A stretch of 63,832 bases of DNA from Aminobacter aganoensis (lineage in GTDB: Bacteria > Pseudomonadota > Alphaproteobacteria > Rhizobiales > Rhizobiaceae), in assembly GCF_014206975.1 (NCBI RefSeq), contig NZ_JACHOU010000024.1, positions 1 through 63,832 of the forward strand, in the 5' to 3' direction. Below, one piece after another: positions 53,664-63,832 of the stretch; within the stretch, counting starts at the first letter, position 1; every line of letters starts with the position of its first letter. The position numbers and the translations under genes were made by a program. Below the pieces are notes generated by a model. That model was given only the letters and a program-made list of their open reading frames with translations, searched no databases and was not told where the DNA came from.

Positions 53664-54584
53664 TTATGTCGCCGGACGGAATGGCTTTGCCAGCGATGCC
53701 GGGAAGTGCAGGGCGAGCATCTGCCGGTTCTGCGAGATGATGACCAGCACGACGATCGTCGCGAGATAGGGCAAAGCGGAGAGCAGTTCGGAGGGAACCG
53801 CAATGCCCAGCGCCTGGCCCTGAAGCTGCAGGATGGTCATGCCGCCGAACAGCCAGGCGCCGAGCAGCACGCGCAGCGGCCGCCAGGTGGCGAAGACCAC
53901 GAGCGCCAGCGAGATCCAGCCCTTGCCGGCCGTCATGTTTTCGACCCAGAGTGGGGTATAGGCGACCGACAGGTAGGCACCGGCAAGCCCGGCCATCAGC
54001 CCGCCGAACAGCACCGCGAGATAGCGGATCCTGATCACCGGATAGCCGATGGCGTGCGCGGTCTCCGGCGACTCACCGATGGTGCGCAGGATCAGCCCGC
54101 CCTTGGTGCGGTAGAGGAACCAGCTGATGACGGCGAACATGACGATGGCGAAATAGACCATCGGGTCGAAACGGAAGAACATCGGCCCGATGACGGGGAT
54201 GTCCGACAGGAACGGGATGCTGATGCGGTCGAGCGCGTCGATCGGAGCGGAGCCGAAATTGCGCCCGAGGAAGGCCGAGACGCCGGAGCCGAAGATGGCG
54301 AGGGCCAGGCCGGCGGCATACTGGTTGGTGAGGAACGTCAGCGCCAGCACGCCGAACAGCAGCGAGGCGGCTGCCCCGCCGAGCGCGCCGGCGAGGATCG
54401 CCACCGGCATCGGCAAGCCTGCGATGACCGCCCAGAAGGCGAAGGCGGCGCCGATCAGCATCATGCCTTCGATGCCGAGGTTGAGGACGCCGGATTTTTC
54501 GACGACGAGTTCGCCGAGGGCCGCGAAGATCAGCGGCGTGGCGGCAATGATGGTGCCGGTGAAGATGGCAATGAACAGGTCCAT
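53664..54584 (-). CDS. ABC transporter permease, nucleoside/BMP-type (NupQ-like)
   Basis: 306 residues with about eight membrane helices. PLIFAALGELVVEKSGVLNLGIEGMMLIGAAFAFW and TIGESPETAHAIGYPVIRIRYLAVLFGG are the characteristic blocks of the second permease in BMP-family (purine nucleoside) importers. ATG 54584 overlaps the stop of the first permease (ATGA). Longer frames extending to 55466 are spurious. Confidence 0.92.
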   Translation of the reverse strand: MDLFIAIFTGTIIAATPLIFAALGELVVEKSGVLNLGIEGMMLIGAAFAFWAVIAGLPMPVAILAGALGGAAASLLFGVLALTFLTNQYAAGLALAIFGSGVSAFLGRNFGSAPIDALDRISIPFLSDIPVIGPMFFRFDPMVYFAIVMFAVISWFLYRTKGGLILRTIGESPETAHAIGYPVIRIRYLAVLFGGLMAGLAGAYLSVAYTPLWVENMTAGKGWISLALVVFATWRPLRVLLGAWLFGGMTILQLQGQALGIAVPSELLSALPYLATIVVLVIISQNRQMLALHFPASLAKPFRPAT

Positions 54585-55651
54585 CAGGCGTGCTCCGGGA
54601 TGCGGCGAAGTCGATAGAAGATGAAGAAGTCGGCGGCGAGCAGGAAAAACAGCAATATGCCCTGGAAGATTCGCGTCAATGCCGCCGACAGGCCAAGGTT
54701 CATCTGCACTGCCTCGCCGCCGAGGAACAGCAGCGACATCAGCAGGCCGCCGAGGACGATGCCGAAGGCATTGAGACGGCCGATGAAGGCGACGATGATC
54801 GCGGCGAAGCCGTAACCGGGCGAGATCTGCGGCGACAACTGCCCGAGCGGTCCGGCCACTTCGGCCATGCCGGCAACGCCTGCGGCAGCGCCGCCGGCCA
54901 GCAGGCCGATCCAGACGGCCGAGGATTCGCGGAAGCCCGCATAACGTGCCGCCAGGGGGGCGGCGCCGCTGACCGACATCTTGTAGCCGAGGAAGCTGCG
55001 GTCGGTGAACAGCCACATCAGGAACACCGCGACCACGGTGATGAAGACCGAGGCGTTGAGCCGGTAGGCATAGTCGAAGGGCTCGAACATCGCAGCGGCA
55101 GACAGAAGTGCGGTCTGCGGATAATTGAAACCGGCGGGGTCGCGCCACGGCCCGTGCACCAGCCACGACAGGAGAAGCGTCGCGATATAGGTCAGCATCA
55201 GCGTGACCAGGATCTCGTTGGTGTTCATCCGCGCCCTGAGGAAGGCCGGGATGGCGGCCCAGGCCATGCCGCCGCAGGCACCAGCCAGGACCATCAGCGG
55301 CAGCAGGATGGGGCTTTCGGGGTTGGGGTAGAACAGGCCGACGCCGCAAGCGGCGATGGCGCCGACGATCAGCTGTCCCTCGGCGCCGATGTTCCAGACA
55401 TTGGCACGGAAGCCGACGGCCAGGCCGCAGGCGATGAGGATCAGCGGCGACGCCTTGAGCAGCCATTCGGAGAGCCCGTTCAACGAATTGAGCGGAGCGA
55501 TGAAGAAGGCCTGCAGCGTCGCCAGCGGGTCATAGCCGAGCGCGGCAAACAAAAGCGAGCCGACGACAAGCGTCAGGCCGGTCGCGACGACCGGCGCCGC
55601 CACCCGCATCCTGGCGGATGGTTCCGGTCTTTGTTCAATCCTGTACCGCAA
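54584..55651 (-). CDS. ABC transporter permease, nucleoside/BMP-type (NupP-like)
   Basis: 355 residues with about nine membrane helices. WLLKASPLILIACGLAVGFRANVWNIGAEGQLIVGAIAA, FLRARMNTNEILVTLMLTYIA and SPGYGFAAIIVAFIGRLNAFGI are the conserved blocks of the first permease of this type. It overlaps the ATPase 3' end by 17 bp (55635-55651). With the NupQ-like partner it forms the channel of the BMP importer. Confidence 0.92.
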   Translation of the reverse strand: MRYRIEQRPEPSARMRVAAPVVATGLTLVVGSLLFAALGYDPLATLQAFFIAPLNSLNGLSEWLLKASPLILIACGLAVGFRANVWNIGAEGQLIVGAIAACGVGLFYPNPESPILLPLMVLAGACGGMAWAAIPAFLRARMNTNEILVTLMLTYIATLLLSWLVHGPWRDPAGFNYPQTALLSAAAMFEPFDYAYRLNASVFITVVAVFLMWLFTDRSFLGYKMSVSGAAPLAARYAGFRESSAVWIGLLAGGAAAGVAGMAEVAGPLGQLSPQISPGYGFAAIIVAFIGRLNAFGIVLGGLLMSLLFLGGEAVQMNLGLSAALTRIFQGILLFFLLAADFFIFYRLRRIPEHA

Positions 55652-57176
55652 CTTCGCCTCTCCCGTTGGTTCCGTTGCCGCGGTCGACCCTGGTCATCAG
55701 CAGGCCTATCTCCTCGCGGTTGGTTTTTGTTCTGATCAGCGGCGGCGAAACCTGTCCCTGGCAGATGACCAGCAGGCGATCGCAAATCTCGAACAGCTCG
55801 TCGAGTTCCTCCGAGATCACCAGCACGGCCGCACCCGAACGGCTGAGATCGACCAGCGTCTGGCGAATGAAGGCTGCCGCGCCGACATCGACGCCCCAGG
55901 TCGGCTGGGCGACGAGGAACAGCTTGGGCTGGAGTGCGATCTCGCGGCCGACGATGAACTTCTGCAGGTTGCCGCCCGACAGGCTCTGGGCGCTCGCCTG
56001 AGGCCCGTTGGCCTTGACCTTGAAGCGCTCGATGATCTTCGCGGCGAAGCTGTTTGCTCCCTTGCGGTCGACGAGGCCGTTGCGGACGAGCCCGGTGCGG
56101 TGGGCGGTCAGCACCGCATTCTGCCACAGCGCATGCGGCGGCACGGCGCCGCGGCCAAGACGTTCTTCCGGCACGAAGGCCATGCCGAGCTTGCGCCGTT
56201 CGCTGGCGTTGAGATGGGCGGCAGCCTTGCCGTCGATGTGGATCGTCAGGGCATTGGGATGGGTACGCTCGCCGCTGAGCAGCGAGATCAGCTCGGCCTG
56301 GCCATTACCGGAGACGCCGGCAAGGCCGACGATCTCGCCGCCACGCACCTCAAACGAGACGTTCTTCAGCTCGACGCCGTAGCGGTCGCGCGCCGGGGCG
56401 GTGAGGCCACGCACTTCGAGCACCGGCTTTTCGCTCGGCACCGAGGGGCTGACGTGCATCTCCGGCAGTTCCGCGCCGACCATCAGCCGTGCCAGTTGGG
56501 CGGAGGTGCTTTCCTTGGGCCGTGCCGTGCCCGTCACCTTGCCGTTGCGCAGCACGGTTGCGGTGTCGCAGAGTTCCTGGACCTCGTCGAGCTTGTGGCT
56601 GATGTAGACGATGGAGCAGCCTTCGCTGGCGAGCTGGCGCAAGGTGTCGAACAGCTTGACCACCGCCTGTGGCGTCAGCACCGAGGTCGGCTCGTCGAGG
56701 ATCAGCAGTTTCGGCGCCTGCAACAGGCAACGCACGATCTCGACGCGCTGGCGCTCGCCGACGGAGAGGTCGTGCACGCGGCGGTGCGGATCGATCGGCA
56801 TGCCGTAGCGGTTCGACAGCTCGGTGATCTGGCGGGCAAGCGCGTCGAGGTCGAAGGTGTTGGAAACGGCCAGCGCGATGTTCTCGACCACGGTCACGGA
56901 TTCGAACAAAGCGAAGTGCTGATAAACCATCTCGATGCCCAGCGCTCGCGAGGTGGCTGGCGTGTGCGCGGCGATGGGTTTGCCGTCGCAGAAGATTTCG
57001 CCGGAATCGGCCTGGGCCGCGCCGTAGATGATCTTCATCAAGGTCGACTTGCCGGCGCCGTTTTCGCCGAGCACCGCATGGATTTCGCCCGGCATGATCG
57101 ACATCGAGATGTCGTCATTTGCAACGATGCCGGGATAGCTTTTGGTGATGTTGCGCAATTCGAGGCGTGGGGGCAT
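55635..57176 (-). CDS. ABC transporter ATP-binding protein, duplicated (RbsA/NupO-like)
   Basis: 513 residues with two ATPase halves. The first has Walker A GENGAGKSTLMKI, signature LSVGERQRVEIVR and LLILDEPTSVLTP. The second has the weak GVSGNGQAELISLL, signature LSGGNLQKFIVGRE and LVAQPTWGVDVG in place of a normal Walker B Glu. The degenerate second half is normal for sugar/nucleoside ATPases of this type. ATG 57176 (MPPRLELRN) follows AGGA; upstream ATGs exist. The ATPase energises the BMP importer. Confidence 0.92.
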   Translation of the reverse strand: MPPRLELRNITKSYPGIVANDDISMSIMPGEIHAVLGENGAGKSTLMKIIYGAAQADSGEIFCDGKPIAAHTPATSRALGIEMVYQHFALFESVTVVENIALAVSNTFDLDALARQITELSNRYGMPIDPHRRVHDLSVGERQRVEIVRCLLQAPKLLILDEPTSVLTPQAVVKLFDTLRQLASEGCSIVYISHKLDEVQELCDTATVLRNGKVTGTARPKESTSAQLARLMVGAELPEMHVSPSVPSEKPVLEVRGLTAPARDRYGVELKNVSFEVRGGEIVGLAGVSGNGQAELISLLSGERTHPNALTIHIDGKAAAHLNASERRKLGMAFVPEERLGRGAVPPHALWQNAVLTAHRTGLVRNGLVDRKGANSFAAKIIERFKVKANGPQASAQSLSGGNLQKFIVGREIALQPKLFLVAQPTWGVDVGAAAFIRQTLVDLSRSGAAVLVISEELDELFEICDRLLVICQGQVSPPLIRTKTNREEIGLLMTRVDRGNGTNGRGEVAVQD

Positions 57177-57263
57177 AGCCGGTCCTGCCATTTGGGTTGG
57201 ACGATGCGCAGCCATAGCCACCGGAGCCTGGGCTCCGGTGGACTTGCTAGCGTGGGGCGGAAA

Positions 57264-58358
57264 TCAGCCGAGCTTGCCGATCATTCCCTTGACGAACCAG
57301 TTCATGCCGCGGATGTCGGCATCGGCCAGCACGCTGCCGGCTGCGACCTTGACGTTGCCGTCCTGGTCCTTCAGTTCGCCCGCATAGGGATGGATCTTGC
57401 CCGAGCCGATGTCGGCTTCGAGCTGCTTGAGCTTGGCGATGACGTCGGCCGGGATGGCCTCGTTGTAGGGCGCCATCTTGACCACGCCGCCGGCGAGGCC
57501 GTCCCAGCGCGATTCCGGCTTCCAGTTGCCTTCGGCCACGCCCTTGGCGGCGCGGACATAGTCGCTCGACCAGTCGAGGGTGAAGGCGGTCAGCTGCTTA
57601 CCGGAGCCGAACTTAGCCATGTCTGAGGCATAGCCGATCGACCAGGCGCCGCCTTCACCCGCCACCTGCACGCCGGTGGCGGTATCGGTCATCGAGCAGA
57701 TGACATCGCAGCCCTGCGACAGCAGCGTGTTGGCCGCTTCCTTTTCCTTGCCCGGATCGAACCAGGAATTGAGGAAGATTGCATTGCAGGTGATGTCGGG
57801 ATTGACGCTCTGGGCGCCGAGCAACAGCGCATTGGCCGGGCCGACGATGTCGGGGATCGGGAAGCCGCCGATGAAGCCGATCTTGCCGGACTTGCTCATA
57901 TGGGCGCCGGAAGCACCCGCCACGTAGCAGCCTTCATAATATTTGGCTTCGAAGGTGCCGAGATTGGCCAAGTGGACAATGCCCGAGCAATGCTCGAAGG
58001 CGACCTTGGGGAAGCGCGGCGCCACTTTCTGCATCGGCGTGCCGTGCGAGAACGAGGTGCCGAAGATCAGCTGGTTGCCGGAGGCGGCGAGTTCGCGGAA
58101 CACGCGTTCGGCGTCCTGGGGCATGAAGATGTTGTCGATGACGGTCAGCGCGACCTTGTCGCCGAATTCCGCCTTGATGGCATCGACGCCCAGGCTGTGC
58201 TGCTTGGTCCAGCCGATGTCGGCGATCGGCGAGACATAGACGACGCCGATCTTGAGTGGCTCCTGGGCGCTGGCGAGGCCAGCCCAGCTGCCGGTGCCGA
58301 GTGCCGCGCCGGCAGCGCCGGAATATTGCAGGAATTTGCGTCTGTTGAGATTAAGCAT
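57264..58358 (-). CDS. BMP-family ABC importer substrate-binding protein
   Basis: 364 residues. A Tat-like signal (MLNLNRRKFLQYSGAAGAA, cleavage near ASAQE) precedes a BMP-family basic-membrane/PnrA-like fold: KIGVVYVSPIADIGWTKQHSLGVDAI, GTSFSHGTPMQKVAPRFPKVAFEHCSG, NLGTFEAKYYEGCYVAG, GFIGGFPIPDIVGPANALLLG, LNSWFDPGKEKEAANTLLSQGCDVI. Members of this family bind purine nucleosides, and rhizobial and Agrobacterium relatives are annotated for related purines. The Trp/Asp/Phe pattern could stack on a purine ring. It is coded between the GntR regulator and the ATPase. Confidence 0.92.
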   Translation of the reverse strand: MLNLNRRKFLQYSGAAGAALGTGSWAGLASAQEPLKIGVVYVSPIADIGWTKQHSLGVDAIKAEFGDKVALTVIDNIFMPQDAERVFRELAASGNQLIFGTSFSHGTPMQKVAPRFPKVAFEHCSGIVHLANLGTFEAKYYEGCYVAGASGAHMSKSGKIGFIGGFPIPDIVGPANALLLGAQSVNPDITCNAIFLNSWFDPGKEKEAANTLLSQGCDVICSMTDTATGVQVAGEGGAWSIGYASDMAKFGSGKQLTAFTLDWSSDYVRAAKGVAEGNWKPESRWDGLAGGVVKMAPYNEAIPADVIAKLKQLEADIGSGKIHPYAGELKDQDGNVKVAAGSVLADADIRGMNWFVKGMIGKLG

Positions 58359-58404
58359 TGTGGTAACCCTCTGTTGGTAGTCGGCGCCCGGCTTCGTGCC
58401 GGGT

Positions 58405-59172
58405 CTATTTAGCGGTGTGGACGTGGGCGTGCGCCCCTGTTCCACCTCTATCTCCCGTCTTTTTTCGTGGCGCAGGCTTCGGCGCTTCGCCGGCCTTGCC
58501 GTCGAGATACGGCTCCAGCGCTTCGCGGGGCGTCAGCTCCGGGAACACCTGCCGGTCCATGATGTAGCCGCGCACGACGCTGCGGTGATGTGCATCAATG
58601 AGCTCCATCGCCGGCTTGAGCCGGCCCTTTTCGAGCAGTTCGACCACGCGGGCATGGTCGTCGAGCAGGTTGCAGTAGTCGAAATCGGCGGTGATCAGCG
58701 ACCGGAGCAGCGTGGTGCGGCGCACCAGCTGGGCGTGGATTTCCTGCATCACCTTGTTGCGGCTGAGGCGGACGAAAACGGTGTGGAATTCCTGGCCGAG
58801 GACGTCGGCGAGGGCATCGTTGCCCGAGGCAACCGCCTGGCGCTGGCGCTCGACATGCTGGCGCAATTCGGCCCAGCCGGCGGGGCCGAGGCGATCGCTG
58901 AGCTGGGCCGCCACGCCCTGTTCGACCAGGGTCAGGGCGTCGTAGATCTCCATCGCGTCCTGCATGCTGGGACGGGCGACGAAGGCGCCGCGATTGCGCT
59001 CGATCTGGGCAAGCCCGTCGTCGGCAAGGCGGATCAGCGACTGGCGGATGACAATGCGGCTGACGTCGAAAATCTCGGACAGCTCGCGCTCGCCGAGCTT
59101 GCAGCCGGGCACGAGCCGGTGATCGAGGATCGCCCGGGTCAAAATGTCGGCAATCGCCTGCGAGCGGCTCAT
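58405..59172 (-). CDS. GntR-family (FadR/FCD type) transcriptional regulator
   Basis: 255 residues. Winged HTH (about 1-70: ILDHRLVPGCKLGERELSEIFDVSRIVIRQSLIRLADDGLAQIERNRGAFVA) followed by an FCD effector domain (about 75-215) with the metal-type His residues in GQEFHTVFVRLS and HARVVELLEKG and IDAHHRSVVRGYI. The C-terminal tail is basic and His-rich (HAHVHTAK). It follows GGGAGGAGGGAG. It is the first gene of the BMP-importer operon and is divergent from the split oxygenase genes, so it probably controls both directions. Confidence 0.9.
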   Translation of the reverse strand: MSRSQAIADILTRAILDHRLVPGCKLGERELSEIFDVSRIVIRQSLIRLADDGLAQIERNRGAFVARPSMQDAMEIYDALTLVEQGVAAQLSDRLGPAGWAELRQHVERQRQAVASGNDALADVLGQEFHTVFVRLSRNKVMQEIHAQLVRRTTLLRSLITADFDYCNLLDDHARVVELLEKGRLKPAMELIDAHHRSVVRGYIMDRQVFPELTPREALEPYLDGKAGEAPKPAPRKKTGDRGGTGAHAHVHTAK

Positions 59173-59263: not shown

Positions 59264-59348
59264 GGTATTCCATATCGGTATTCAATCGGTTCGCGCTGTC
59301 AACCAAAATTCTTAACTGGATATGCAATTTCTTATTGATTGATATCCA
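59264..59348. promoter_or_regulatory. Repeats in the divergent GntR/oxygenase promoter region
   Basis: Two direct GGTATTC copies (59264-59270 and 59277-59283) are 13 bp apart. TGGATAT (59317-59323) and ATATCCA (59342-59348) are an inverted pair 18 bp apart. All lie in the AT-rich 59250-59390 stretch between the GntR start (59172) and the oxygenase start (59417). These are candidate operators for the divergent promoters; neither is proven. Confidence 0.4.
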
Positions 59349-59416
59349 ATCCTGTGTTTCCAATTGAGGCATAAGAGAGCTAGGTTCATGGGGAAGTGCT
59401 AGCCAGGGAGGGTGCC

Positions 59417-60283
59417 ATGAGCATAGCAGCCCTTTGTAGCGACAGAGTCCTTCTCAACGACTGGCACGTGGTGGCGGATCTGGCGAACCTGTCCTCGGCC
59501 ACGGCGTTTCAGACAAGGCTTCTCGGCGTCGATCTTACCATTCGAAGCCACGGCCGATACGACAAGCAGATCATCCGCGAAGACAGCGGCGAGGTCGTCA
59601 ATTCGACCAAACGCTATGGCTTCCTGTGGGCATGCCTGGGCAAGCCCGAGCGGGACATCGTCTTCGTGCCCGAAGCCGAGGAGGGCGATCGTTATCTCGT
59701 CACCGGCGGCTCGATCGCCGTCAAGGTGTCGGGGTTGAGGATGGTTGAGAATTTCCTCGACATGGGACATTTTCCTTTCGTCCACACCGGCTGGCTTGGC
59801 GAAGAACCGCATACGGAAGTAGCGCCCTATAAGGTCGAACTGACAGCCGCCGACGAGCTGGTGGCGACCGAATGCCAGTTCTACCAGCCCGTCGCCTCGC
59901 CGACGGCTAGGGAAGGCTTCATCGTCGACTACGTCTACAAGGTGATCCGCCCCTACACGGTGGCGCTGTACAAGAGCAATCCGGCGCAGAAAGGTCGGCT
60001 CGACGTCATTACCCTGTTCGTCCAGCCGGTCGACGAGGAAAATTGCGTCGCTCATCCCTTCCTCACCTACCTCAAGGAAGGCATCGACGAGGCCGGGATC
60101 CGCAGCTTCATGCAGTTGATCTTCGCCCAGGACAAACCGATCCTGGAGAACCAGGTGCCGAGGCGGCTGCCGCTCGATCCGCGTGCCGAAACGCCGATCC
60201 GCGCCGATGCCGTGGCCGTGCTGTACCGGCGCTGGTTGCGCGACAAGTCGGTCACCTATGGTGCCATACCGGCGCGGATGTGA
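59417..60283 (+). CDS. Rieske-less non-heme iron oxygenase subunit, copy 1 (NdmC-like)
   Basis: 288 residues. The C-terminal catalytic domain of Rieske oxygenases of the vanillate-demethylase type is present: N112-F-L-D115-x-x-H118 and H123 in ENFLDMGHFPFVH, and a late QDKPILENQ block with a likely third ligand. The N-terminal Rieske domain (CxH...CxxH) is absent: the protein begins with SIAALCSDRVLLNDWHVVAD and reaches the catalytic domain within about 50 residues of degenerate sequence. This is the layout of NdmC, which relies on a Rieske domain carried by NdmD. ATG 59417 follows AGGGAGG. It heads the oxygenase operon, divergent from the GntR regulator. Confidence 0.85.
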   Translation: MSIAALCSDRVLLNDWHVVADLANLSSATAFQTRLLGVDLTIRSHGRYDKQIIREDSGEVVNSTKRYGFLWACLGKPERDIVFVPEAEEGDRYLVTGGSIAVKVSGLRMVENFLDMGHFPFVHTGWLGEEPHTEVAPYKVELTAADELVATECQFYQPVASPTAREGFIVDYVYKVIRPYTVALYKSNPAQKGRLDVITLFVQPVDEENCVAHPFLTYLKEGIDEAGIRSFMQLIFAQDKPILENQVPRRLPLDPRAETPIRADAVAVLYRRWLRDKSVTYGAIPARM

Positions 60284-60310
60284 AACCGCGCCTTCACTAA
60301 GGAAACGCAT

Positions 60311-61216
60311 ATGACCAAGACGCGATGCACGGATCAGGTGATCCTCGACCTCTGGCACCCGCTGGCCGCCCTTGCGGAGGTGCGGGCAGGTGTCGTCGTC
60401 GATACGGTGCTTCTGGAGGAACGCCTCAGCCTTGCCATCGACGGCAAGGGCAGCGCCGCGGTCTGGCGCGACCGGGCCGATCTTGCCGAGGGCAGCCTGG
60501 TGGACGTGGCGGCCGTTGACGGCAAGCTGCCGGTCAAGCTCGCCTATGGTTATATCTGGACGTCGCTCGGCAATCCGCCGGCCGACCTGTTCCCGATACC
60601 GGAATTCGACGAGCCCGACCGCCGCAAGCTCAATGCCGCGACCGTCGGCGTGAACGTCTCGGCGCCGCGGGCAATCGAGAATTTCCTCGACATGGGACAT
60701 TTCCCCTATGTCCACACCGACATCCTCGGCGCCGAACCGCATACCGAGGTGAAGGAATACGACGTCGAGATTTCGGTCGACCGCGACGAGATCCTGGCCA
60801 CGCGCTGCCGCTTCTTCCAGCCGATGGCCTCGACGACGTCGACCGAGGGCGCCGACGTCGACTACATCTACCGGGTGCCGCATCCCTATTGCTCGGTGCT
60901 CTACAAATCGAGCCCGGTCGATGAAAGCCGCCTAGACGTGATCGCCGTGTTCCTGCAGCCGGTCGACCAGGAGCATGTGCGGGCGCACATGATGCTGTGC
61001 ATCCTCGACGAGGAGAACGAGGACAAGGTCATCAAGCGCTTCCAGCAGACGATCTTCGGGCAGGACAAGCCGATCCTGGAAAACCAGTTCCCGAAACGGT
61101 TGCCGCTCGATCCGCGCGCCGAAACACCCATCCGTGCCGACAAGTCGGCGATCGCATACCGCCGCTGGCTCAGTCAGAAGGGTGTGACCTACGGGGTCAT
61201 TCCCGCCGCTACCTGA
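60311..61216 (+). CDS. Rieske-less non-heme iron oxygenase subunit, copy 2 (NdmC-like)
   Basis: 301 residues, a paralogue of the preceding protein. The iron site is ENFLDMGHFPYVH (N124, D127, H130, H135), followed by EPHTEVKEYDVEI and QDKPILENQFPKRLPLDPRAETPIR, the last block nearly identical in both copies. There is no CxH...CxxH motif, so again no Rieske cluster. It may form a hetero-oligomer with copy 1 or handle a second N-methyl position. It starts 28 bp after copy 1. Confidence 0.85.
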   Translation: MTKTRCTDQVILDLWHPLAALAEVRAGVVVDTVLLEERLSLAIDGKGSAAVWRDRADLAEGSLVDVAAVDGKLPVKLAYGYIWTSLGNPPADLFPIPEFDEPDRRKLNAATVGVNVSAPRAIENFLDMGHFPYVHTDILGAEPHTEVKEYDVEISVDRDEILATRCRFFQPMASTTSTEGADVDYIYRVPHPYCSVLYKSSPVDESRLDVIAVFLQPVDQEHVRAHMMLCILDEENEDKVIKRFQQTIFGQDKPILENQFPKRLPLDPRAETPIRADKSAIAYRRWLSQKGVTYGVIPAAT

Positions 61217-61252
61217 GCGCGAGCCGCGCGAAACCCAGTTCTGGAGACAACA

Positions 61253-63019
61253 ATGCTCGATACCGCCAAGACCAGATGGCATCCCGTTGCCGCGACCTAT
61301 GACCTGCCGTTCCGGCATGTCTTCCATGCCCAGTTGCTCGGCCGCGAGTTCGCCGTCTGGCGTGCCGACGACGGCTACGTCAACGTCTGGGAAAACCGCT
61401 GCCTGCACCGTGGCGTGCGCCTGTCCATCGGCATCAACGATGGCCGCGAACTGAAGTGCCAGTACCATGGCTGGCGCTATTCGAACCGTACCGCCGGCTG
61501 TACCTACATTCCCGCCCATCCGGCCGACGCGCCGGCGCGCACCATCACCAATCGCACCTTCGCCGCCGTCGAGCGCTACGGCCTCATCTGGTCGGCCGAG
61601 GAGCCGCAGGGCGAAGTGCCCGAGTTGCCCGGCCTTGCCGAGGGCGAACTGCTGACCCTGCGCGGCATCCCGGTCAACGCCCCGGCCGACGTCGTTGCGG
61701 CCAGGTTGGAGGGCTACCGCTTCCAGCCGAACGGCCGGACCGACGGCAGCGACGCCAAGGTCTCCGTCGAGGCATCGAACGAGTTTTCGGTCGCGCTGCG
61801 TGCCGTCGATGGCGAAGCTTCGACGCTGGCCGTGTTCTTCGTCCAGCCGGTCGATTCCAACCGTTCGGTGATCCGCGGCGTCCTCGACGGCAAGGTCGAG
61901 GGTGCCGTGCGGCTGGCCGTGCTCCATCACCACAACGACCTCCTGTCGAAGCTGCGCGACATCGCCGAGCACGAGGCCCAGGCACAGCCGGTGCCTGCAC
62001 CGCTGGAGCCCGTCATCGACCGGGTTTCGCCGGAACTCGCCGAGATGCCGGAAGAGACCAAGCACGGTCGCAAGGCGACGATCCGCGTCGAGGTTGCCAG
62101 GAAGTGGCAGGCTGCCGACGGCATCGCCGGCTTCGAGCTTCGGCCGATCAAGGGTCTGTTGCCGACCTTCCAGCCCGGCGCCCATATCGACGTGCATCTG
62201 CCCAACGGCCTGATCCGGCAATATTCGATCACCAACGGCCCGGGCGAAAGCGACAGCTATATCATCGGCGTCAAGCTCGAGCGCGACTCCAAGGGCGGCT
62301 CGACCTGCCTGCACGAGACGGTGCGCCAGGGCGACGTTCTGGCGATTTCCGAGCCGCGCAACAACTTTCCGCTGCGCCGCGATGCGATGAAGACCATCTT
62401 CGTCGCCGGCGGCATCGGCATCACGCCGCTGCTCGCCATGGCCCAGGCGCTCAGCAACCAGAGCCTCAATTTCGAACTGCACTATTTCGCGCAGAACGAG
62501 GCGCAGCTTGCCTTCCCGGAGAAGACCGCCTGTCTCGGCACATCGCTCAAGCCGCATCTCGGCCTTTCGCCCGAGCAGACCGGCGCCAGGCTGCGCGAGA
62601 TCCTGTCCGGCTACAGGTCGGATGCGCATCTCTATCTCTGCGGCCCCGGGCCGATGCTGGAAGCCGCGCGCCATGTCGCCGCCGAGGCCGGCTGGCCGGA
62701 AACGGCGGTGCACTTCGAATACTTCAAGAACACCAATGTCATCGACGACAGCTCGAGCTTCGAGGTGGCGCTGGCGCGTTCCTGCGTCACGCTCAAGGTG
62801 CCCGCGGGCAGGACCATCCTCGACGTCATGCGTGAAGCCGGCATCGACATGCCGTCGTCTTGCGAGCAGGGCGCCTGCGGCACGTGTCTCGCGACCGTCA
62901 TCGAAGGCGAACCGGATCACCAGGACGTCTATCTCAACGATGCCGAGCGCAAGTCCGGCACCAAGATCATGACCTGTGTGTCGCGTGCCAAGTCGGCGCG
63001 GCTCGTCCTCGACCTCTAG
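61253..63019 (+). CDS. NdmD-like reductase carrying a Rieske domain plus FNR and ferredoxin modules
   Basis: 588 residues. The N-terminal Rieske 2Fe-2S domain (about 1-115) has C50-L-H52 and C69-Q-Y-H72. A middle region (about 150-260) is short of any catalytic motif. The flavin/NAD part has RQYSITN (about 322) and GGIGITPLLAM (about 387). A C-terminal plant-type 2Fe-2S ferredoxin has SCEQGACGTCL (about 536-546) with the distal Cys in MTCVSR. The order Rieske-FNR-ferredoxin in one chain is unusual for a reductase. It is that of NdmD, the reductase of methylxanthine N-demethylases, which supplies the Rieske cluster to NdmC. It starts 36 bp after oxygenase copy 2. Confidence 0.9.
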   Translation: MLDTAKTRWHPVAATYDLPFRHVFHAQLLGREFAVWRADDGYVNVWENRCLHRGVRLSIGINDGRELKCQYHGWRYSNRTAGCTYIPAHPADAPARTITNRTFAAVERYGLIWSAEEPQGEVPELPGLAEGELLTLRGIPVNAPADVVAARLEGYRFQPNGRTDGSDAKVSVEASNEFSVALRAVDGEASTLAVFFVQPVDSNRSVIRGVLDGKVEGAVRLAVLHHHNDLLSKLRDIAEHEAQAQPVPAPLEPVIDRVSPELAEMPEETKHGRKATIRVEVARKWQAADGIAGFELRPIKGLLPTFQPGAHIDVHLPNGLIRQYSITNGPGESDSYIIGVKLERDSKGGSTCLHETVRQGDVLAISEPRNNFPLRRDAMKTIFVAGGIGITPLLAMAQALSNQSLNFELHYFAQNEAQLAFPEKTACLGTSLKPHLGLSPEQTGARLREILSGYRSDAHLYLCGPGPMLEAARHVAAEAGWPETAVHFEYFKNTNVIDDSSSFEVALARSCVTLKVPAGRTILDVMREAGIDMPSSCEQGACGTCLATVIEGEPDHQDVYLNDAERKSGTKIMTCVSRAKSARLVLDL

Positions 63020-63030
63020 GAGTTTCCCTT

Positions 63031-63678
63031 GTGATTACGCTCTACGACTACGAACTGTCGGGCAACTGCTACAAGCTGCGCCTGCTGATGGGCATGCTCG
63101 GCGTCGACTGGACGACGGTGCCGATCGACTTCTACCCCGGCCGCGAGCACAAGTCGGAATGGTTCCTCAAGATCAATCCGCTCGGGCAACTGCCTGTGAT
63201 TGAAGACGATGGCCTCGTCTTGCGCGACGCCCAGGCGATCCTTGTCTATCTCGCCTCGAAATACGATGCCGTGGGTACCTGGTATCCGCGCGACAATCCG
63301 GCGCTGCTCGGCGAGATCGGCCAGTGGCTGGCCTTCGCCGACGGCATCACCGGCACGGCTTCAGCGGCCCGGCTGCATGACGCGCTGTTCTACGACTTTG
63401 ACGTCGAGGCGGCCCGTGCCGGCGCCCATCGCCTGTTCCGCATCCTCGACGAGCATCTGTGGTTCGGCGAGCAGGAGGGCCGCGACTGGATCTGCTCGGC
63501 CTCGCATCCGACCATCGCCGACATCGCCTGCTTCCCCTACATCATGCTGTCGGAAGAGGGCGGTGTCCCCAGACAGGACTATCCGGCGATCCGCCGCTGG
63601 TGCGATCGTGTCAAGCGCATCAAAGGCTTCACGGTGATGTCGGGGGTGTTCCCCGCCGGACCGGCCAAGGCAGCCTGA
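63031..63678 (+). CDS. Glutathione S-transferase-like protein (NdmE-like)
   Basis: 215 residues. Thioredoxin-fold N-domain (LYDYELSGNCYKLRLLMGMLG, then NPLGQLPVIEDDGLVLRDAQAILVYLA) and an all-helical C-domain ending HPTIADIACFPYIMLSEEGG...RRWCDRVKRIKGF. The start is GTG 63031, with TAGGAG just upstream and 11 bp after the reductase stop. In the Pseudomonas Ndm system a GST-like protein, NdmE, is required structurally with NdmC and NdmD; the same role is likely here. Its position supports the Ndm-like reading of the operon. Confidence 0.88.
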   Translation: MITLYDYELSGNCYKLRLLMGMLGVDWTTVPIDFYPGREHKSEWFLKINPLGQLPVIEDDGLVLRDAQAILVYLASKYDAVGTWYPRDNPALLGEIGQWLAFADGITGTASAARLHDALFYDFDVEAARAGAHRLFRILDEHLWFGEQEGRDWICSASHPTIADIACFPYIMLSEEGGVPRQDYPAIRRWCDRVKRIKGFTVMSGVFPAGPAKAA

Positions 63679-63739
63679 CCCGTTTTAAGCAATTCCGCCG
63701 GCCATCGGTCCGGTAACCGATATTTTGGGAGTGTAAACC

Positions 63740-63832
63740 ATGAAAACCCGCGCCGCAGTTGCCGTCGGAGCCGGAAAGCCGCTCGAGATCATGGAGGTGG
63801 ACCTGGAGGGTCCGCGCGAGGGCGAGGTGCTC
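63740..63832 (+). CDS. Class III alcohol dehydrogenase / glutathione-dependent formaldehyde dehydrogenase (partial)
   Basis: The gene begins at ATG 63740 after GGGAG and runs off the window after 31 codons. The visible N-terminus (MKTRAAVAVGAGKPLEIMEV) is the standard start of the zinc-dependent class III ADH, S-(hydroxymethyl)glutathione dehydrogenase. The zinc and NAD sites lie beyond the edge. Formaldehyde oxidation is the expected companion of an oxidative demethylase, and it follows the GST-like gene by 61 bp. Confidence 0.8.
   Translation, partial: MKTRAAVAVGAGKPLEIMEVDLEGPREGEVL

Follow-up and report, generated by a model that had tools for sequence, protein, structure and literature searches.

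A candidate NdmCDE-type split-Rieske demethylase locus with two catalytic subunits and an adjacent importer in Aminobacter aganoensis

We analyzed an entire contig of the Aminobacter aganoensis genome (contig C24, 63,832 bp, hereafter the window; genome 5.76 Mb in 52 contigs), whose right end carries an operon for a split-Rieske oxygenase. On the + strand, the operon encodes in order two oxygenase catalytic subunits (C1 and C2), a protein in which a Rieske domain is fused to a reductase (D), a protein resembling glutathione S-transferase (GST; E), and the start of a glutathione-dependent formaldehyde dehydrogenase (FDH). With moderate confidence, we read the locus as encoding a split-Rieske N-demethylase of the NdmCDE type that has two catalytic subunits and would act on an imported methylated purine and release formaldehyde. 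Demethylation itself, and an N- rather than an O-methyl substrate, are steps that we infer. What the analysis establishes is which domains the proteins contain, which metal ligands they have retained or lost, how the genes are ordered, where the proteins fall in phylogeny, and that purifying selection acts on them.

The split-Rieske operon and its relation to Ndm proteins

The operon contains the following features, in window coordinates.

59417..60283, + strand: C1, Rieske-less oxygenase catalytic subunit, 288 residues, iron ligands in DMGHFPFVH and QDKPILENQ
60311..61216, + strand: C2, second Rieske-less oxygenase catalytic subunit, 301 residues, iron ligands in DMGHFPYVH and QDKPILENQ
61253..63019, + strand: D, NdmD-like protein, 588 residues
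61277..61522, + strand: Rieske [2Fe-2S] domain of D, residues 9-90, with CLH...CQYH ligands
61640..62038, + strand: middle of D, residues 130-262, putative vestigial catalytic domain of an oxygenase, lacking the iron-ligand motif
62078..63016, + strand: reductase part of D, residues 276-588, a flavin/NADH module (flavin mononucleotide predicted from the 2pia match) and a plant-type ferredoxin
63031..63678, + strand: E, GST-like NdmE homologue, 215 residues, GTG start
63740..63832, + strand: S-(hydroxymethyl)glutathione dehydrogenase (the FDH), first 31 codons, broken off by the contig end

Both C1 and C2 matched the catalytic-domain model VanA_C, as did all 59 proteins in their alignment, and C2 was additionally above the cut-off for KshA_C; no Rieske model was among the families listed for either protein. 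In an alignment with NdmA and NdmB, all 20 C1 rows retained the iron-site ligands (two His and one Asp) together with the bridging Asp, and the same columns were kept in all 34 C2 rows save for an Arg in place of the first His in one row. A C2-type protein without the usual DxxHxxxxH motif (locus L055, 5053-6000) is probably that row. Three of the four Rieske ligand columns held no ligand in any C1 or C2 row, and the first, within a gapped stretch, held Cys in one C1 and three C2 rows. In D, we detected a Rieske domain, an NAD-binding domain, and Fer2 (residues 510-580), with Rieske and Fer2 both found in 44 of 44 D-family members. The reductase part aligned with 2pia, the phthalate dioxygenase reductase, over residues 8-321 of its 321, and the solved oxygenase structures closest to the Rieske part were SxtT and SxtDIOX. 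D is 38% identical to NdmD over its full length (595 columns) and E is 68% identical to NdmE; because D is homologous to NdmD and E to NdmE, we assign the locus to the NdmCDE type of split-Rieske oxygenase.

The sequence-only reading had described two oxygenase subunits without a Rieske cluster, a 588-residue reductase bearing an N-terminal Rieske domain plus FNR and ferredoxin modules, a GST-like protein, and an FDH start, together forming an Ndm-like operon in a rhizobial-type genome. Each of these components was borne out, and the nearest D proteins came from Mesorhizobium and Aminobacter. Against four close relatives, the ratio of nonsynonymous to synonymous substitution rates (dN/dS) was 0.07-0.10 for C1, 0.09-0.11 for C2, and 0.08-0.17 for D, so all three proteins are under purifying selection; inside D, it was 0.03-0.07 for the Rieske part and 0.14-0.27 for the middle. 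The possibility that the 588-residue protein is a chance open reading frame was ruled out by its domain matches and these dN/dS values.

E likely starts at the GTG at 63031. The FDH start (ATG at 63740) matches TIGR02818 positions 1-30 before the contig stops at 63832. Contigs C1, C22, and C35 of the same genome likewise end in an FDH start, and the break may therefore be due to an FDH repeat. Contig C16 opens with an FDH C-terminus followed by fghA and then by opposite-strand genes of 201 and 257 residues. In the relative L011, the operon FDH and FghA are followed by one 250-residue gene call and then by opposite-strand genes of 201 and 257 residues. Because its gene order matches this operon end, contig C16 is the likely continuation of contig C24.

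As the Ndm reference, we used plasmid pTmex-577K of P. putida MT178 (L092). Its two full-length oxygenases match NdmA (762 bits) and NdmB (785 bits) from the PDB along their length, and 6icm_D, an NdmD ferredoxin chain of 87 residues, is matched by its reductase (163.8 bits); its NdmC and NdmE were named by position and by the published description as given in PMC4408171. In an oxygenase tree of 90 rows, with long branches on several of them, the 83 Rieske-less rows formed one group (93/98, just below the starred level). Within it, the C1 clade (24 of 24 rows, 100/100) shared a 32-row branch (99/92) with NdmC and with the R. leguminosarum, Komagataeibacter, and Variovorax forms, and the C2 of the window lay with 34 other rows on a separate branch (97/94). 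The NdmC clade (4 of 4 rows, 100/99) included neither C1 nor C2 of the window. C1 and C2 are old paralogues. A tree of 43 Rieske domains placed D, NdmD, and three stand-alone Rieske proteins together (93/85, below the starred level), with a long-branch warning on the tree and with koR1, whose ligand pattern was not found, left out. Both halves of the system thus group with the Ndm family, which ruled out that the C proteins are served by a Rieske domain of another known family.

The identification of the operon as simply the set NdmC-NdmD-NdmE was not supported, while the Ndm-like split-Rieske system, the importer, and the FDH start in the same earlier interpretation stood. The window has two catalytic paralogues outside the NdmC clade, and the helix that runs from the Asp ligand reads QDxMILxNQ in NdmC versus a consensus of QDKPILENQ in the C1 and C2 types, with Pro, Ile, Glu, Asn, and Gln invariant in a 52-row alignment of the two. 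In addition, the genome contained no close relative of NdmA, the best match being 40% identical and located on contig C3 (NdmB was not searched separately).

Importer, gene neighborhood, and proposed reaction

Divergent from the operon lie a GntR/FCD regulator and an ATP-binding cassette (ABC) importer of the BMP/PnrA type, with a PF02608 substrate-binding protein (SBP), a two-domain ATPase, and two permeases.

59334..59351, no strand: ATTGATTGATATCCAATC, intergenic, candidate regulator site
58405..59172, - strand: GntR/FCD-type regulator, divergent
57264..58445, - strand: BMP/PnrA-type SBP with a twin-arginine translocation signal, likely start 58358 (PF02608, 147.7 bits)
55635..57221, - strand: ABC ATPase with two ABC domains
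54584..55651, - strand: ABC permease (BPD_transp_2), first of two
53664..54587, - strand: ABC permease (BPD_transp_2), second of two

The intergenic ATTGATTGATATCCAATC occurs in the window and in the four close relatives compared, and a scan for promoters and terminators gave no signal exceeding its shuffles. We counted neighboring genes around the best 80 of 180 confirmed relatives of D, over the DNA of each locus; these loci are related to each other. A C2-type gene was present at all 80 loci, C1 at 42, and a GntR regulator at 40; E was found at 78, the remaining two contigs stopping 39 and 116 bases past D. The order C1-C2-D-E recurs in relatives, and C1 is missing in S. meliloti 4H41 and at two S. 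medicae loci. The distribution of D itself was patchy, with 6 of 10 genomes of the genus and 16 of 297 genomes drawn from the order carrying it (own genome included in both).

A BMP-type SBP or BMP-like ATPase accompanied 58 of the 80 loci (SBP alone, 48). An ATPase at least 60% like that of the window was present at 37 loci, importer parts at other loci were about 27-44% alike, and all four divergent SBPs tested were Bmp in Pfam. Because the genome itself has six Bmp genes in 5.76 Mb, so repeated an association is not expected by chance, an informal judgment that rests on related loci. Purine genes also recurred. An adenosine-deaminase-like gene lay at 11 of 80 loci; all five examined in Pfam were A_deaminase, among them four of the more divergent ones (L063, L069, L079, and L084), and that of L054 exceeded the cut-offs of two curated models for adenosine deaminase. 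Near the Pseudomonas and Klebsiella clusters, there was a nucleobase:cation symporter or urate hydroxylase, the amidohydrolase beside the R. leguminosarum form was closest to 8-oxoguanine deaminase (below its cut-off), and the Aminobacter genome carries xdhA. A further purine link, through an "alanine--glyoxylate aminotransferase" neighbor in S. meliloti, was dropped when it reached no NCBIfam model at cut-off.

Two side observations concern the same neighborhoods. At L034, L036, L037, L038, and L041, a third Rieske-less oxygenase (49-51% identical to C2) lies by a divergent BMP importer, upstream of C1-C2-D. The acidimicrobial metagenome-assembled genomes of L050, L051, L054, and L056-L064 carry ndmCDE-like genes with, variously, adenosine deaminase, GcvT-like proteins, and BMP importers, and some of these loci also carry a Rieske-bearing oxygenase that branches beside the Rieske-less family.

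On the reading that we prefer, a methylated purine or a close purine-like heterocycle would enter through the BMP/PnrA importer. NADH would reduce the flavin of D, and electrons would pass through the ferredoxin of D to its N-terminal Rieske cluster, from which they would cross the interface between the proteins and reach the mononuclear iron of C1 or C2. By analogy with the Ndm system, C1 or C2 would hydroxylate an N-methyl group, which would leave as formaldehyde to be cleared by FrmA/FghA. E, as suggested by NdmE, which is postulated to be structural in the account given by PMC4408171, would hold C and D together. PMC9830774 describes an N-terminally truncated NdmD that promotes higher activity when used with NdmA and NdmB, a result that fits an N-terminal half serving the NdmC branch only.

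Several observations weigh against this reading. FDH (best match at least 76% identical) was found at only 25 of the 80 loci, and at 20 of the 62 with at least 2.5 kb to the right of D; S. meliloti ml56 has no annotated FDH in the stretch shown. Eight of the 11 loci with deaminase-like genes are acidimicrobial by title and distant from this genome. At the thresholds used, 11 of 49 full-flank loci show no BMP-type gene, and some of the ATPase-only matches may be sugar importers. The solved structures closest to C1 are not NdmA but SxtT and SxtDIOX (PDB 6wn3 and 6wnc), which are treated as hydroxylases in PMC8752792. Finally, the NCBIfam importer models nearest to the ATPase and SBP of the window are for a "putative B6" importer, below cut-off, so a pyridine-type substrate is possible.

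This last point favors a rival reading in which the imported compound that is oxidatively demethylated is not a purine but, for example, an N-methylpyridine, a quaternary amine, or another N-heterocycle; so does the fact that BMP-family importers are not all purine importers. Such a substrate is possible, if unlikely, given that purine-gene neighbors recur across the family. Literature searches brought no direct precedent within their scope: none matched for the BMP family with methylxanthine, none of the matches listed for rhizobia with 7-methylxanthine contained that compound, Rieske with methylguanine returned just tRNA-enzyme work by its listing, oxygenases "lacking the Rieske" returned other subjects only by title and abstract start, and S. 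meliloti locus tags, with guessed tag ranges, gave no match.

The catalytic pair and the middle of D

C1 and C2 are 48% identical to each other, and their identities to NdmC are 44% and 48%, respectively. Asn282 and Phe286 of NdmA matter for the choice between N1 and N3. At the position of Asn282, C1 has Met in 20 of 20 rows, and C2 has Gln in 31 of 34 rows (Val in 2, His in 1); Gln is also found in NdmC (3 of 3) and in NdmB. C1 and C2 thus differ in the substrate pocket, and they probably act on different groups, such as different methyl positions, or on different substrates. As few as two active-site mutations switch NdmA, according to PMC8055839.

Alternatively, C1 could be a structural partner in C1-C2 hetero-oligomers whose activity resides in C2 only. 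The invariant Met in C1 and the presence of C2 at every locus, as against C1 at 42 of 80, speak for this arrangement, but C1 retains the two His, the Asp ligand, and the bridging Asp in all 20 of its rows and has a dN/dS as low as 0.07-0.10; we consider a purely structural C1 unlikely. Less likely again is that the enzyme simply removes the N7-methyl group of 7-methylxanthine, as its counterpart does in caffeine-degrading Pseudomonas, with C2 in the role of NdmC. The homology of D and E to NdmD and NdmE, the 48% identity of C2 to NdmC, and the Gln that the two share would suit it, but C2 lies outside the NdmC clade, does not keep the QDxMILxNQ helix, and has no close NdmA relative beside it in the genome. 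A hydroxylase that works without formaldehyde release, as in SxtT-type relatives, is similarly improbable: SxtT and SxtDIOX are the closest solved structures, but an FDH start lies by the operon, and FDH recurs at 25 and FghA at 11 of the 80 loci.

The stretch of D between its Rieske and reductase parts (about residues 108-262) holds FFVQPVDSNRSVIRGVL, which resembles LFVQPVDEENCV of the C1 catalytic domain. Within residues 96-300, the iron-ligand motif D..H....H was found in none of 85 full-length D rows. When the profile of D 130-262 was aligned to that of the C catalytic domain, the score was 34.7 over 38 columns, compared with 20.7 for the best of 100 column-shuffled controls and 11.8 for the reversed control; the hhalign probability was just 61-64%. 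When the D 130-262 profile was searched against 14,826 translated stretches, with the D proteins of the loci excluded, C-family proteins took the 48 top ranks and 59 of the top 60 (best E = 0.003) and made up 100 of the 140 matches reported at E up to 50, these matches being mutually related, including a few reference copies of locus rows, and so not independent. NdmA, NdmB, and their like were not reported in this search; neither P. putida NdmD nor the stand-alone Rieske proteins were matched, and the Klebsiella and KF715 NdmD scored only 4.7 and 3.5 bits, respectively. Among solved structures, SxtDIOX ranked first (E = 0.24) and SxtT third (1.0); the second and fourth ranks went to unrelated proteins, the former of them MKL/myocardin-like (0.48). 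These weak but agreeing lines of sequence evidence suggest that D may carry a vestigial catalytic domain in its middle.

If so, D and C would be reciprocally degenerate copies of one Rieske oxygenase alpha subunit, D having kept the cluster but not the iron site, and C1 and C2 the iron but not the cluster. Structurally known Rieske oxygenases are described in PMC12445004 as C3-symmetric rings with about 12 Å from a cluster to the iron of the neighboring subunit. We tentatively propose, as a possibility more doubtful than the demethylase assignment, that the working enzyme would be a mixed ring, with an alpha position beside C1 and/or C2 filled by the pseudo-oxygenase half of D, with E as a clamp and two catalysts fed by one cluster carrier. 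An oxygenase would then have been rebuilt from complementary broken subunits, and a vestigial domain in D would suggest how the Rieske split arose.

Related modules and comparison with known systems

Other oxygenase modules were observed in the same genome and elsewhere. On contig C22, which ends in an FDH start, a second module (L118, 3-7093) pairs a BMP importer with a full Rieske oxygenase that resembles NdmA (33-37%). On contig C3, L119 (7145-13645) has a stand-alone reductase like that of D (40%), an NdmA-like Rieske oxygenase, an amidohydrolase, and a xanthine permease over its NCBIfam cut-off. On a Komagataeibacter nataicola kombucha plasmid (L094, 4932-11483), an NdmA-like oxygenase is accompanied by two oxygenases and two GSTs, the former without a Rieske domain, by a pair of small Rieske proteins, and by a reductase that is a separate protein. 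A different fission was seen on a Variovorax paradoxus plasmid (L098, 9307-12454), with a stand-alone Rieske protein, followed by a fusion of catalytic domain, reductase, and ferredoxin and then by a GST. This arrangement comes close to a self-sufficient Rieske oxygenase system, of which none has been identified yet according to PMC12445004.

The split-Rieske kind is already in the literature. As described in a 2015 review (PMC4408171), NdmC is without a Rieske cluster and NdmD bears an extra one, NdmCDE being the first reported case of a Rieske domain split off an oxygenase and fused to a reductase. The same review counts ndmCDE homologues, their function unknown, in another 18 organisms, which beyond the closest are predominantly Sinorhizobium and Mesorhizobium; its account of these homologues, as far as consulted, mentions neither paired catalytic subunits nor the importer nor the middle of D. 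The structure of the NdmCDE complex is given as unsolved in a 2026 paper (PMC13237722). By sequence, the variant described here is marked by two catalytic paralogues and an adjacent importer. Many genomes of alphaproteobacterial and acidimicrobial origin carry this natural NdmCDE variant, which frequently has two catalytic partners and makes it testable how the cluster of one protein serves iron sites on others and why a GST is needed. It also bears on which methylated compounds rhizobial-type soil bacteria import.

Compared with NdmCDE of P. putida CBB5, represented here by L092, the window shares a Rieske-less catalytic subunit with its 2-His-1-Asp iron site kept, a Rieske domain fused to a flavin/ferredoxin reductase, a GST-like third protein, and FDH in the cluster. 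It differs in having tandem C1 and C2, both outside the NdmC clade, instead of a single catalytic subunit, in having a BMP ABC importer where L092 has a nucleobase symporter, in lacking a close NdmA in the genome, and in its pocket residue and iron-helix motif. On pSymA of S. meliloti ml56, the gene order from the importer and GntR through C1 and C2 to D and E is the same, and the four proteins C1, C2, D, and E are 84-89% identical. In SxtT and SxtDIOX, the cluster and iron are on one chain, whereas those of the window are on separate chains. Phthalate dioxygenase reductase 2pia is without the Rieske half that D possesses.

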